The notes under the pieces were generated by a model. The model searched no databases and was not told the origin of the DNA. It saw only the letters and a list, made by a program, of their open reading frames with translations. 64,000 nt of DNA from Collinsella tanakaei YIT 12063 (lineage in GTDB: Bacteria > Actinomycetota > Coriobacteriia > Coriobacteriales > Coriobacteriaceae), in assembly GCF_000225705.1 (NCBI RefSeq), contig NZ_JH126467.1, positions 183,397 to 247,396 on the forward strand, written 5' to 3'. The translations under genes were made by a program, and so were the position numbers. Each line of letters opens with the position of its first letter. Position 1 is the first letter of the stretch. Of the stretch, positions 3,313-8,965 are shown in pieces.

Positions 3313-4029
3313 TTACAGTTGACGCAGGCCCTCTTCCAGGCCTGTCTTGCTATCGGTCTTTTCATCGCGTTGTTTAATCACGCGAGCGGGAACGCCGGCG
3401 ACAACGGTGTTATCGGGAACGTCCTCGACAACGACAGCGCCCGCTGCGACAACCGCGCCTCTGCCAACGTGGACGCCTTCGAGCACCACGGCGTTGGCGC
3501 CGATCATGACGCCGTCCTCGATAATCACGGGTGTGGCGCTTGCCGGCTCGACTACGCCCGCGAGCACGGTGCCTGCGCCAATGTGGCAGTTCTTGCCCAC
3601 CGTGGCGCGGCCGCCCAGGATGGCGCCCATGTCGATCATGGTTCCCTCGCCGATGACAGCGCCGATGTTAATGACGGCGCCCATCATGATGACGGCGTTG
3701 TCGCCGATGGAGACGCGATCGCGAATGATCGCGCCGGGCTCGATGCGCGCGTTGACGCCCTTGGTGTCGAGCAGGGGCACGGCGGAGTTGCGGCAGTCGT
3801 TCTCGACCTCGTAGTAATCGATGGAGTCGGCGCTGTCCTGCAGGATGCCGGACAGCTCGCCCCAGTCACCGAAGATGATCTTGCCCTTGCGGCCACCGAA
3901 GACATGCGCGCCCTTCCAGTCAATTCGCTGACCGGGCTTTTCGCGAACATACAGCTTCACCGGCGTCTTCTTCTCCGCGCAGCGGATGAAATCGATGATT
4001 TCTTGGGCGTTCATCTGGGTGTTGTCCAT
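3313..4029 (-). CDS. dapH: tetrahydrodipicolinate N-acetyltransferase
   Basis: DapH N-acetylates tetrahydrodipicolinate in the acetylase branch of the lysine/diaminopimelate pathway. The 238-residue protein has an N-terminal helical part ([23 protein letters not shown]) and a left-handed beta-helix of hexapeptide repeats, visible as [29 protein letters not shown] and later turns, ending [14 protein letters not shown] 4029 is preferred over an upstream in-frame ATG because it matches the family N-terminus and has GAGAGGA upstream. It is the last gene of lysA-dapA-dapB-dapH, 101 bases after dapB. Confidence 0.95.
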
Positions 4030-4130: not shown

Positions 4131-4880
4131 TCAGTCGAACATGACCTGATCAAAGGTGTAGAAGCCGGGCTGACGCGTCGCCATCTTGAGCGCTGCGGCA
4201 AGTGCGCCGTTGACAAATATCTGGCGGCTGCCGGCACGGTGCGTAAGCGTGACCTCTTCGTCCGGGCCAAAGAAGGAGACCGTGTGCACGCCCGCCACGG
4301 TGCCGCCGCGAAGAGAGTGCATGCCGATCTCGTGCGGGTCGCGCGCACCGCACATACCGGAGCGGCCAAACACGGGGGAATACTCCCCGCGGCCGGCGGC
4401 TGCCTGGGCATCCATAACGGCATCGAGCAGTAGATTCGCCGTTCCGCTGGGCGCATCGACCTTTTGGTTGTGATGCGTCTCACAGATCTCCACGTCAAAG
4501 CCGGGGAGCTCGCGGGCCGCTTGGGCCGTGAGGTGGCGCAGGGCCGCAACGCCTATGGAGTAGTTGCCCGAGTGCAGGACGGCGACGTCGTTGCCCAGCA
4601 CGCGCAGGCGCTCCATCTCGTCCACGGAATAGCCGGTTGTGCCGCTAACCAGGGCGCATTCGCATCGCTTCACGTAGGCCTCGACCGCGGGCAGGGTCGC
4701 GACGTTTGAGAAGTCGATCAGCACGTCCGCTGCGGGCGCGGCTTGAGTCCGTTCAAGGTCGAATCCGATTTGGGCCACTACGTTAAAGACGGGGTTTTGA
4801 TCTGCGTCGCGCATGGCCTCTGCTGTCTGGCGAATGAGCGATCCCATGCGGCCGTTACCCATGATGGCGATGTTAAGCAA
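4131..4880 (-). CDS. dapB: 4-hydroxy-tetrahydrodipicolinate reductase
   Basis: DapB reduces hydroxy-tetrahydrodipicolinate to tetrahydrodipicolinate with NAD(P)H. The 249 residues begin with the dinucleotide-binding turn [13 protein letters not shown], include LIDFSN and SGTTG, and carry the family signature [15 protein letters not shown] with the catalytic His-His and Lys. The start overlaps the dapA stop by 8 bases, indicating translational coupling within the riboswitch-led lysine operon. Confidence 0.96.
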
Positions 4881-5763
4881 CTAGACCAGCCTCCTTCAAG
4901 GCGGAACGCAGCGCCTGGGCGGCGCCGTTTGACATGGCGGTAAGCGGCAGGCGGTAATTCGCCTCGATCATTCCCATCTGTGCCAGGGCCTCTTTGACGG
5001 GAATGGGATTCACCTCGCTAAACAGCCCGTGGATAAGGGGGAGCGCGGCGAGCTGCAGGCTGCGTGCGGTCTCAACGTCGCCGTCCAGGAAGGCCGCGCA
5101 CATGTGGTGCACCTCGCGCGGCTGAAGGTTTGCCCATACGGATATGGTGCCGCTTGCACCAAGCGACATCAGCGGTACGGTGAGCGCATCCTCGCCCGAA
5201 TACATGCGGAAGCCATCGTTGATAAAGCACGCGGCGTCGGCGGCGAATCCCACGTTGCCGGAAGCCTCCTTGAGGCCCATGACGTTAGGGTGCACGGCGA
5301 GGCGCTCGATGTTGCGCAGCGAGATGGAGCAGCCGGTGCGGCCGGGGATGTTGTAGAGGATGCAGGGGATGTCCACCGCGTCGGCGACTTCTTTGAGGTG
5401 CTGGTAGATGCCTTCCTCGTTGCTTTTGTTGTAGTAGGGGGTGATGATGAGCAGGCCGTCTGCTCCCAGTTCTTGGTAGGCCAGGCTCTTCTCCACCATG
5501 GTTTGCGTGCAGTTGGAACCTGATCCGGCGATTACGGGGATGCGGCCCCCAACCTGCTTGACCACGGCCTGGACCACGGCGTTGTCCTCTTCATGCGTCA
5601 TGGTGGACGATTCGCCCGTTGTACCCAGGATCAATAAGCCGTCCGTATGGTTCTGCAGGTGGAAGTCCACCAGGTGAGACAGGGCTTCGAAGTCGATTGA
5701 GCCATCGCTCGCAAACGGCGTCACAAGCGCGACGATCGATCCCGTGAGTTCGCGTGCATCCAT
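4873..5763 (-). CDS. dapA: 4-hydroxy-tetrahydrodipicolinate synthase
   Basis: DapA condenses pyruvate with aspartate semialdehyde, the first committed lysine step. The 296-residue TIM-barrel protein shows GTTGESSTMTHEE (residues 47-59), Tyr137 in LYNIPGRTG and the Schiff-base Lys165 in GLKEASGN. Start ATG 5763 comes two bases after the lysA stop, so the two are coupled; an upstream in-frame start would overlap lysA and lacks family similarity. AAAGGA lies inside the end of lysA. Confidence 0.96.
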   Translation of the reverse strand: MDARELTGSIVALVTPFASDGSIDFEALSHLVDFHLQNHTDGLLILGTTGESSTMTHEEDNAVVQAVVKQVGGRIPVIAGSGSNCTQTMVEKSLAYQELGADGLLIITPYYNKSNEEGIYQHLKEVADAVDIPCILYNIPGRTGCSISLRNIERLAVHPNVMGLKEASGNVGFAADAACFINDGFRMYSGEDALTVPLMSLGASGTISVWANLQPREVHHMCAAFLDGDVETARSLQLAALPLIHGLFSEVNPIPVKEALAQMGMIEANYRLPLTAMSNGAAQALRSALKEAGLVA

Positions 5764-5765
5764 GG

Positions 5766-7130
5766 TTACTCGTCCTTTCCGCCGCAATCGCGGCAAGCGT
5801 TGATCAGGGCGCGTCCTTCTGGCAAAACGTCCAGGGTCGCAAAGTAGTCATCCGGCCGTTCGGCGCGTCGAATGAGTTCGTCGGTGCCATCGGAGCGCAG
5901 CAGCACCTCGGCGGAGCGCAGGCGTCCGTTGTAGTTGTAGCCCATAGAGTGTCCGTGGGCACCGGTGTCGTGAATCACCAGCAGGTCACCTATGTCTATA
6001 TGGGGCATGGCGCGGTCGACGGCGAACTTGTCGTTGTTCTCGCACAGGTTGCCCACAATGTCGTAGACGGCGTCTGCGGAGGCGTGCGTCTTGTCCGGAC
6101 CACCTGGCTGGCCCACTACGGTGACGTGGTGATAGGCGCCGTACATAGCCGGGCGAATGAGGTTGCATGCGTTGGCATCTACGCCAACGTAGTGCTTGTA
6201 GATGTCCTTGGTGTGGATGGCGCGCGTGACCAAGCAGCCATAGGGGCCCATCACAAAGCGGCCCATCTCAGCAAAGACGGCTACATCGTCCATGCCCGCT
6301 GGAACCAAGATCTCCTCATAGGCGCGGCGAACGCCCTCGCCGATGGCGCGGATGTCGTTTGCCTGCTGTTCGGGACGATAGGGGATGCCCACGCCGCCGG
6401 AGAGGTTGATAAAGCCAACGCGGCAGCCGGTCTCCTCCTGCAGTCGGCGCGCGAGGTCGAATAGAATGCGCGCGAGCGCAGGGTAGTATTCATTGGTTAC
6501 GGTGTTGCTTGCAAGAAAGGCGTGCAGGCCAAAGGTTTCGGCGCCCTTTTCCTTTAGCATGCGGTAGGCGTCGAAAAGCTGCTCCTCGGTCATGCCGTAC
6601 TTGGAGTCGCCGGGGTTATCCATGATGCCGTTTGCTAGCTGGAACAGCCCGCCTGGGTTGAAGCGGCAGCTTACGGTTTTGGGGACAGCGCCGGCCGTGC
6701 GCTCAAAGAAGTCGATGTGGGTGATATCGTCAAAATTGATGGTGGCGCCAAGCTCGCTTGCAAGCGCGAAGTCCGCTGCGGGCGTGTTGTTGGACGAGAA
6801 CATGATGTCAGATCCCGTGATGCCCAGCGAGCGGGCGATCATAAGCTCGGTATCGCTTGAACAGTCGGCGCCGCACCCGTATTCGCGCAGGATCGAGATA
6901 AGCCGCGGGTTGGGATTGGCCTTTACGGCAAAGTACTCCTTGAATCCCGGGTTCCATGCAAAGGCGTCGCGGATGGCCTCCATATTCTTGCGTATGCCCG
7001 CCTCATCATACAGATGGAAGGGGGTTGGATAGTGCTGCACTAGGCTTTCGATCTGTTCTTTTGTGGCAAAGGGCTGTTTGGCCGCATAGGCGCGGTCCAG
7101 GTCTTCTTGGTTTTGCTGATGGTCTTCCAT
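5766..7130 (-). CDS. lysA: diaminopimelate decarboxylase
   Basis: LysA converts meso-diaminopimelate to lysine using PLP. The 454-residue protein has the PLP lysine K70 in YFAVKANPNP, the glycine-rich NLSGGVGIPY and the late barrel segment MGYNYNGRLRSAEVL. The usual GLHxHIGS motif is replaced by GLHAFLASNTV, so it belongs to a divergent LysA branch; substrate preference was not tested. ATG 7130 has AGGAAGG upstream and fits the family N-terminus; the open frame extends further 5' through the riboswitch only by chance. First gene of the lysine operon. Confidence 0.9.
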   Translation of the reverse strand: MEDHQQNQEDLDRAYAAKQPFATKEQIESLVQHYPTPFHLYDEAGIRKNMEAIRDAFAWNPGFKEYFAVKANPNPRLISILREYGCGADCSSDTELMIARSLGITGSDIMFSSNNTPAADFALASELGATINFDDITHIDFFERTAGAVPKTVSCRFNPGGLFQLANGIMDNPGDSKYGMTEEQLFDAYRMLKEKGAETFGLHAFLASNTVTNEYYPALARILFDLARRLQEETGCRVGFINLSGGVGIPYRPEQQANDIRAIGEGVRRAYEEILVPAGMDDVAVFAEMGRFVMGPYGCLVTRAIHTKDIYKHYVGVDANACNLIRPAMYGAYHHVTVVGQPGGPDKTHASADAVYDIVGNLCENNDKFAVDRAMPHIDIGDLLVIHDTGAHGHSMGYNYNGRLRSAEVLLRSDGTDELIRRAERPDDYFATLDVLPEGRALINACRDCGGKDE

Positions 7131-7218
7131 CTGTGGCCTTCCTGTGCGGCACGGGGCTTGTTCGCAGTCCTCGTCCGCGCACGGGGGCATGAAATACCGC
7201 CCCGGCGACCAAGAAATC

Positions 7219-7390
7219 ACTTCGAATAGCACCCCTGCATGCTTGCAGACAGTCCCGGACGTGTTTCGCACGGGCCCACCCAAACCTCCGCGCCCGGAGG
7301 TAGGATTCGGCGGGTTTGCCTCCGCACGGGGTCGACGCCTGCCGGCTCGCCCGCGCATCTTCGCGCCCGCGCCTCTATCGAGTAGAGATA
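7219..7390 (-). promoter_or_regulatory. lysine riboswitch (L box) of lysA operon
   Basis: Reading the minus strand, this 170-nt region shows L-box landmarks in order: GATAGAGGCGCG at the 5' side, a GC-rich arm, GCCGAATCCTACC in the middle, GGGACTGTCTGCA, and GGGGTGCTATTCGA closing the P1 helix with ATCGAGTAG-side bases. Spacing and size match the lysine riboswitch class. It ends about 90 bases before the lysA ATG, leaving room for an expression platform. High lysine would lower expression of lysA-dapA-dapB-dapH. Confidence rests on motif matching by eye. Confidence 0.85.
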
Positions 7391-7660
7391 CTTTATCATG
7401 GCGAAGCGTCTATTTGGCGCAATAGTTGGTTCGTTACCGTTTTAAAACAATTCGATTCCAAAGAGCGTCCGTGCGGGCACCCGCCCCGTATAATGGCGCA
7501 ACGTTTTGCTGATGGGCCGCGCGTGGTGCGGTCTTATAAAGACGACCGCAGGTGCTATTGGTAACGGTTGTATGCGGCTGCTGCGGATTTCGCAACCGAT
7601 GTGGATTGTGCGGTCGATGCAGGCGATGGGGAAGATGCGGATCAGGAAGGGGCTTTGTAG
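7391..7660. other. divergent intergenic region between lysA leader and M20 gene
   Basis: About 270 bases that should hold promoters for both the lysine operon (leftward) and the M20 gene (rightward). It contains a 7-bp hairpin, TGCGGTC (7527-7533) with GACCGCA (7544-7550), and at 7404-7417 a minus-strand match to the first half of the repeat seen at 9041-9328. I see no further gene. Confidence 0.5.
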
Positions 7661-8965
7661 ATGAGTGCATGGATGCTTGGCGCTCCCGTTGACACCGTGG
7701 CGGGTGCGGACGCGGAGTGGATTCTTGGGGAGCTGCGTCGCCATCGTCAAGCGTTGCACCGCATACCGGAGCTCGATTTTGAACTTCCGCGCACCATCGA
7801 GTACGTCCGTCACCATTTGGACGGCCTTTCCTGCGAGGTCTTTGAGCCCTGCCGCTCTTGCGTGTGCGCGTACTTTGATGCCGGATGCGATTCCACCGTC
7901 GCCGTCCGCGCGGATATGGACGCCCTTCCCATCACGGAGCGGTCCTGCGCGCCGACACCCTCGGAAACCCCGGGGCACATGCACGCCTGCGGCCATGATG
8001 CGCATATGGCCATGGCACTGACGTTTGCCAGCGTGGTAGACCGCGCAATCGCTAGCGAAAGCGCCTTCGTTGCGGATGACGCGGGGACGTGCGGCGCGGG
8101 GGAGCGCGAAGATGGGGGATGCGAAGCCCAATCCTCGTCCAAAAAATGCACCGCACCCGCCTCTAACGTGTTGTTTATCTTTCAGCCTGCGGAGGAGACC
8201 ACGGGCGGCGCCAGGTCCGTCTGCGAATCCGGCGTGTTCGAGCGCTATGGAGTGAGCGCGATCTTTGGATTCCACGTATGGCCCGACCTGCCGGCGGGCA
8301 CGGTGGCGTCTCGTCCCGGCCCGCTGTTCGCCCGTTCCAGCGAGACGCACATCGACATCAAGGGCGTGTCCGCGCATATCGCCGCCACCTACGTTGTCCC
8401 TGACGAGCAGACTCATGATGCGATGCTTGCCGCCGCTCGCTTTGTCGAGGGCGCGCGCCGTCTGATGATGCAGTTGGGCGAGCGCGAGTACTGTATCGCC
8501 AAGTTTGGCCTGCTGCGCGCCGGCACGGTGTGCAACGCGGTTGCGGACGACGCCCATATCGAGGGCAGCATACGCGTGTATTCCGACCAGCTGTTCGACG
8601 CGGCGCGCGACGGCGTGCGCTCCTGCCTGGAGGACGCCTGTGTCTCGACCGGCTGTACCTACGAGGTCTCTTTTGCGTCGGGCTACCCGCCCGTCATCAA
8701 TGATGCGGCGCTGTTCGAGCGTGCTCGCGCGGCGGTTCCCCATATGATGGAGCTTGATTCTCCGTCGCTCACCGCCGAGGACTTCTCTTTTTACCAGCAG
8801 CGTATCGCTGGGCTGTTTATGCTGCTGGGCGTGGGGGCGTGCCCGGCGTGTCCCGGCGGAGCCACGTCCTCGCTGCATGCGGATGACCTTTACTTCGACG
8901 AAGAGCCCCTGCTGGCAGGCGTCGATACGTATTGCAGGCTGTTGGGGTTGGGGCCGATCGCGTAG
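7661..8965 (+). CDS. M20 family amidohydrolase, candidate N-acetyl-diaminopimelate deacetylase
   Basis: This 434-residue M20 peptidase/amidohydrolase has HRIPEL near the start, AVRADMDALPI, the metal site GHMHACGHDAH, FQPAEETTGGAR with the catalytic Glu pair, the dimerisation-domain His (SAHIA) and SLTAEDFSFY near the end. M20D enzymes cleave N-acyl amino acids. Because it lies divergently next to the DapH-type lysine operon, N-acetyl-diaminopimelate deacetylase is the best guess; a general aminoacylase or hippurate hydrolase is possible. A polar, Cys-containing insertion (about residues 140-167) is atypical. ATG 7661 has GGAAGGGG upstream. Confidence 0.8.
   Translation: MSAWMLGAPVDTVAGADAEWILGELRRHRQALHRIPELDFELPRTIEYVRHHLDGLSCEVFEPCRSCVCAYFDAGCDSTVAVRADMDALPITERSCAPTPSETPGHMHACGHDAHMAMALTFASVVDRAIASESAFVADDAGTCGAGEREDGGCEAQSSSKKCTAPASNVLFIFQPAEETTGGARSVCESGVFERYGVSAIFGFHVWPDLPAGTVASRPGPLFARSSETHIDIKGVSAHIAATYVVPDEQTHDAMLAAARFVEGARRLMMQLGEREYCIAKFGLLRAGTVCNAVADDAHIEGSIRVYSDQLFDAARDGVRSCLEDACVSTGCTYEVSFASGYPPVINDAALFERARAAVPHMMELDSPSLTAEDFSFYQQRIAGLFMLLGVGACPACPGGATSSLHADDLYFDEEPLLAGVDTYCRLLGLGPIA

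Follow-up and report, generated by a model that had tools for sequence, protein, structure and literature searches.

A probable lysine riboswitch in the leader of the Collinsella lysA-dapA-dapB-dapH operon, and related leaders in which the aptamer abuts the ribosome-binding site

The lysA-dapA-dapB-dapH operon of Collinsella is headed by a lysine riboswitch aptamer, which probably allows lysine to lower expression of lysA, and of the genes behind it, by acting where lysA translation begins. This places predicted lysine control before a four-gene lysine operon in the genus. The aptamer lies in a 64-kb stretch of DNA, called the window throughout, and is the only lysine riboswitch match in the genome (2.49 Mb, 99.9% complete). 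The features on which the argument rests are these:

7390..7398, minus strand: extended -10 promoter element TGATAAAGT, recognized by the TGnTAnnnT motif in family upstreams
7219..7385, minus strand: lysine riboswitch aptamer (P1-P5), from the full-length RF00168 match and covariation in 40 aptamers
7131..7218, minus strand: linker of 88 nt between aptamer and lysA, from the sequence
About 7203-7184, minus strand: GGGGCG/UGCCCC hairpin lacking a U-tract, from the sequence
7137..7143, minus strand: lysA Shine-Dalgarno (SD) AGGAAGG, 6 nt before the ATG, from the sequence
5766..7130, minus strand: lysA, diaminopimelate decarboxylase (TIGR01048, 275.3 bits, cut-off of 297.9 not reached; PF02784, PF00278)
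4873..5763, minus strand: dapA (TIGR00674, 322.5 bits; PF00701)
4131..4880, minus strand: dapB, with a TTG start (TIGR00036, 172.5 bits)
3313..4029, minus strand: dapH, tetrahydrodipicolinate N-acetyltransferase, with its ATG at 4029 (TIGR03532, 356.5 bits)

When both strands of the window were scanned with cmscan against the 4227 families of Rfam 15, RF00168 matched 7385..7219 on the minus strand at 60.2 bits (E 3.1e-13, gathering score 30), spanning model positions 1-182 of 182 without truncation. The preliminary description had recognized L-box landmarks upstream of lysA on this strand and proposed just such a search; the significant full-length match bears it out, and AUAGAGG, GCCGAA, GUGGG, GACUGUC, and GUGCUA are all present. 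Its span of 7219-7390 consists of the aptamer plus five extra upstream bases, the last of them being the T that closes the -10 element. A match to PK-repBA (E 0.12) falls under its gathering score and is attributed to chance.

Is the fold itself maintained by selection of paired bases? Forty aptamers from the window's class were scored on the 53 pairs of the Rfam structure against 500 shuffles. Both sides had changed in 37 of the 53 pairs, compared with 22.5 in the shuffles, and the covariation score was 0.302, compared with 0.142; on neither measure did any of the 500 shuffles score as high. Paired cells made up 83.0% of the alignment (75.1% when shuffled), and sliding the structure to other registers gave 47.4% at most. 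The junction core (AUAGAGG, GCCGAA, GUGGG, ACUGUC, and GCUA) is invariant in 40/40 aligned aptamers, the window's among them. For ten of the 53 pairs, over half of the rows show no pairing; P1, P4, P5, and the P2 outer arm have one such pair each. With three more inside P2 and three inside P3, the internal loops there differ in this class from the Rfam consensus. Despite these mostly unpaired pairs, all five helices are backed by covariation, and the element is a member of the lysine riboswitch family.

The genes that follow are tightly arranged. As had been read earlier, lysA and dapA are two bases apart (TAA CC ATG) and dapA overlaps dapB, the overlap coming to 8 bases if TTG is taken as the dapB start. 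A gap of 101 nt then separates dapB from dapH, whose profile query started one codon upstream of the ATG at 4029. Since LysA scores below the TIGR01048 cut-off, its name leans on context as well. The lysA start is located 88 nt 3' of the aptamer or, counted from P1, 94 nt, with the SD 81 nt from P1. On the other side of the leader, at 7661-8965 on the plus strand, a divergent M20 peptidase/amidohydrolase gene (TIGR01891, PF01546) lies off the riboswitch transcript; from its position alone, it is a candidate N-acetyl-DAP deacetylase.

The promoter element is conserved as well. TGnTAnnnT occurs 8-12 nt 5' of ATAGAGG in 33/33 distinct upstreams of the family and at 0 of 27,132 background positions, to which near-identical genomes contributed many. 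A generic sigma-70 scan of the window's leader returned no site. Given where the extended -10 lies, transcription would start near 7383, in the first bases of P1.

How widely is this arrangement shared? The closest LysA relatives that carry names are Collinsella, and we infer that the family groups f1 and f2 are Coriobacteriaceae and Atopobiaceae, respectively. Under stricter filters, the covariance model matched 49 of the 65 genomes of the window's family (45.7-88.7 bits). LysA of the window has a strong match (499 bits or more) in 51 of the 65 and some match in 54. Two of the 51, G024 and G043, lack a model match and have the aptamer by reading and DNA match, making 51/51 family genomes in which this lysA is accompanied by an aptamer. 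The other 14 gave no model match, and their sole DNA match (21 bases, in G027) is too short for an aptamer. dapA and dapB were seen in 49 of the 51 genomes and dapH in 46, and these 46 loci keep the order lysA-dapA-dapB-dapH. As to the remaining five, the stretches from G024 and G043 are too short to judge, the contigs of G002 and G040 end in or soon after dapB, and in G051 dapH was not found within 6 kb. What stands of the proposal that one lysine-sensing RNA controls lysA-dapA-dapB-dapH is thus the aptamer before the operon, the synteny in relatives, and the conserved extended -10; the control itself is predicted.

A lysine aptamer match is present in 169 of the 396 genomes sampled across the class. 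Transfer from Lachnospiraceae, whose LysA comes next in identity, was considered and rejected, as a scan of 19 of the 74 loci from outside Coriobacteriia (L086-L104, with 2-kb flanks) found no lysine aptamer. At another set of class loci (L164-L170, L172-L175, L177-L180, and others), lysine aptamers precede a gene for a protein that has an N-terminus of roughly (M/V)EFVNTFWALVPP and is perhaps a candidate transporter; the linker there often repeats the P1 strand (CCATGG), and some of these linkers have T-runs.

How might the riboswitch work? Transcription would begin at P1. Lysine bound in the five-way junction would keep P1 closed, and less lysA would be expressed. Because the downstream genes are closely packed, the rest of the operon would be expected to fall along with lysA, although this explanation is at its weakest in extending repression across the 101 nt before dapH. 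On the coding strand between 6950 and 7660 there is no intrinsic terminator-like site, the one site found being on the opposite strand. The window does not, then, hold a transcription-attenuating lysine riboswitch with an intrinsic terminator, and control probably acts on lysA translation initiation instead.

Transcription is nevertheless the strongest of the competing targets, though we think it unlikely: in the linker or the first part of lysA, lysine could favor termination by Rho or at a U-less terminator. The GC-rich GGGGCG/UGCCCC hairpin 3' of the aptamer would suit such a role, and by reading, some class members (L201 and L183, for example) have a hairpin followed by a T-run after the aptamer. 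The window's own leader has no such terminator on its coding strand, however, and its hairpin is without the U-tract. RNA decay may be another route of control.

What does the linker contain? A DNA search of the 65 family genomes found no match to it elsewhere, the matches stopping at or just past the aptamer; a single weak match of 36 bases, in G060, is at a different place. In constrained folding, openness of the SD was 0.66 whether P1 was closed or open. Two candidate switch elements were rejected: the best aptamer-linker helix (-20.4 kcal/mol) is equalled by 25% of shuffled linkers, and an anti-SD pairing (UUUCUUG) by 78%. Two copies of CCCCGUGC stand opposite GCAGGGG, by eye only, and UUUCUUGGU pairs with lysA codons in predicted folds only.

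This dearth of a switch signal, together with the 28 of 51 family loci in which the start codon comes 11-17 nt past P1, could mean that the folded aptamer occludes the ribosome-binding site (RBS) directly and that the linker is a mere spacer in the window's lineage. Such a reading is improbable here, as a separation of 81 nt between P1 and the SD is large for a steric block and the linker would have to fold back. The RBS of the window is neither inside nor against the aptamer, and the window is not of the direct-occlusion form. That the riboswitch has decayed and lost lysine sensing in this species is scarcely credible: its 60.2 bits do fall in the lower part of the family range, but 13 of the 49 family matches score lower still, every invariant core column is present, and promoter and operon are intact. 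Lysine acting on translation initiation of lysA, by way of P1, remains the preferred account.

Many relatives have hardly any linker. Of 84 lysA-linked loci that were measured, 39 have 11-17 nt between P1 and the start codon and 45 have more; two others that the motif search had missed, G001 and G003, have 13 nt, for a total of 41 of 86, counts that are not population rates since the class loci were hand-picked from the list of matches. Of the 41, 28 belong to the 51 family genomes. A closer study of 26 leaders puts the first base of the SD 0-7 nt past P1. The RBS thus sits inside or against the aptamer in 41 related lysA leaders, and a blocking effect of the ligand is predicted for them. A start codon so near to P1 leaves no space for a terminator or expression platform, and translation is the natural target. 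Together these features suggest direct occlusion by the aptamer. A broader proposal, which we hold at even strength, is that the Collinsella family and part of the neighboring family have platform-less lysA riboswitches consisting of aptamer, SD, and start, transcribed from P1, in which lysine would repress by means of a closed junction that blocks the 30S subunit, and that in the lineages of the window a linker separates the two. If so, one genus would contain both direct and linker-mediated forms of one switch.

What would keep the ribosome off in the abutting leaders? An extension of P1 that pairs with the SD was tried by exchanging 5' flanks among the 26 leaders, and mean SD openness was 0.431 with the true flank and 0.431 with swapped ones. 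There were exceptions in both directions, G002 and G003 being more closed than every swap, and no swap being more open than G001 or G020. Pairing between the SD and the 5' flank is not supported overall, which makes steric blocking the simplest reading. An opening of the SD upon breakage of P1, seen in most abutting leaders, was discounted because the calculation leaves no way for the first SD bases to pair with the 5' strand.

The family also has long forms, in which the distance from P1 to the start is 71 nt (the aerofaciens type, 21 genomes), 75 nt (G033), or 94 nt (the window). A P1 mimic with an anti-P1 was considered for the aerofaciens-type linker and set aside; its 12-base pairing is visible, with an energy that 25% of shuffles reach. 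The aerofaciens-type SD is about as open in one state as in the other (0.47 versus 0.41). In the neighboring family, some long leaders contain a sequence strongly antisense to the P5-P1 strand (L193, p 0.022; L234, p 0.018; L239, p 0.012; uncorrected values from 19 leaders tested).

A LysA tree of 84 rows unites the aerofaciens type in one clade (100/99), with which the window and G033 group under weak support (91/87), as do three rows from another family and the abutting L200. The tree is rooted at its midpoint, so the direction in which spacing changed is not settled by it. With the SD 0-7 nt from P1 in some and 57-81 nt in others, the orthologous lysA leaders of this one family amount to a natural test series.

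The aerofaciens type has a peculiarity of its own. In 20 of its 21 genomes, LysA and DapA occupy one open frame (L037:3626-5935, minus strand, and orthologues; 769 aa in G005), and Pfam finds both enzymes in the single such frame scanned. G010 has a TAG within the junction, and in the window the two genes are 2 nt apart. Four fused junctions that were examined contain an SD and ATG of dapA's own, AAGGAGAAGAA[C/T]ATG, by which a separate DapA is also possible.

How much of the pathway would the riboswitch govern? The whole branch, including the steps that form diaminopimelate (DAP), had been attributed to it. That was too wide, as the operon supplies four enzymes. The search for the branch took in aspartokinase, DapF, and DAP dehydrogenase. 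The only above-cut-off aspartokinase match in the genome is on another contig, the genome has a single lysine aptamer, and neither DapF (TIGR00652) nor DAP dehydrogenase was found in the window's genome; not all DAP-forming steps are therefore in the operon. The DAP epimerase family PF01678 occurs in 0 of 65 family genomes and in 74 of 119 class genomes. Keeping a lysA-dapA-dapB operon without DapF implies either an unrecognized epimerase or acceptance of LL-DAP by LysA. Mainly for Staphylococcus, a DapF2 of PLP type has been proposed (PMC9026213). Only one alanine racemase was found in the genome.

The cell wall bears on the consequences of shutting the operon off. MurE enzymes that add meso-DAP carry the motif DNPR. 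A MurE-like protein (L240:1357-2928, plus strand; 301.3 bits to TIGR01085) has DDAGTQ in its place, which hints at a non-DAP wall. Were the wall free of DAP, shutting off the operon with lysine would not be expected to starve it. The accessible parts of PMC11382707 and PMC6113628 do not settle the wall type of Collinsella.

Lysine riboswitch operons in Coriobacteriales have been published, and the window is a further case. Table 1 of PMC5584792 places a lysine riboswitch before lysA-dapA-dapB in Atopobium parvulum and before lysA-dapA-dapB-dapD in Slackia heliotrinireducens, which share with the window the aptamer family, the order Coriobacteriales, and the kind of operon. The available main text does not include Collinsella, nor does it discuss spacing or mechanism for the operons of those two species. 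The same source describes the E. coli lysC riboswitch, whose lysine aptamer acts on translation initiation, the predicted target in the window too. The E. coli switch differs in that it precedes another gene, and the account given here for the window involves neither a sequestering structure nor RNase E sites.

Where do the abutting leaders fit among known riboswitches? Direct translation attenuation is known for TPP, preQ1, and SAM-I riboswitches (PMC2258182), and direct occlusion for SAM-II/V, SAM-III, SAM-SAH, preQ1-I, and preQ1-II; a compact preQ1-I aptamer is reported to influence an RBS as much as 10 nt off (PMC10907184). The 41 short-spaced lysA leaders resemble these in having the RBS within or against the aptamer and no separate platform. 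They differ in using the large lysine five-way junction, which the available portions of PMC2258182 and PMC10907184 do not list for direct occlusion, although PMC2258182 relates that a comparative study of 2003 had predicted "the same mechanisms" for lysine riboswitches. No description of direct occlusion for lysine riboswitches was found in the searched part of the open-licence literature, where an earlier mention is possible. The window, with its 88-nt linker, is of a different form from the direct-occlusion riboswitches. Its aptamer is an ordinary, well-conserved one; more striking is the placement, in many of its relatives, of the sensor directly against the RBS with no separate switching element.
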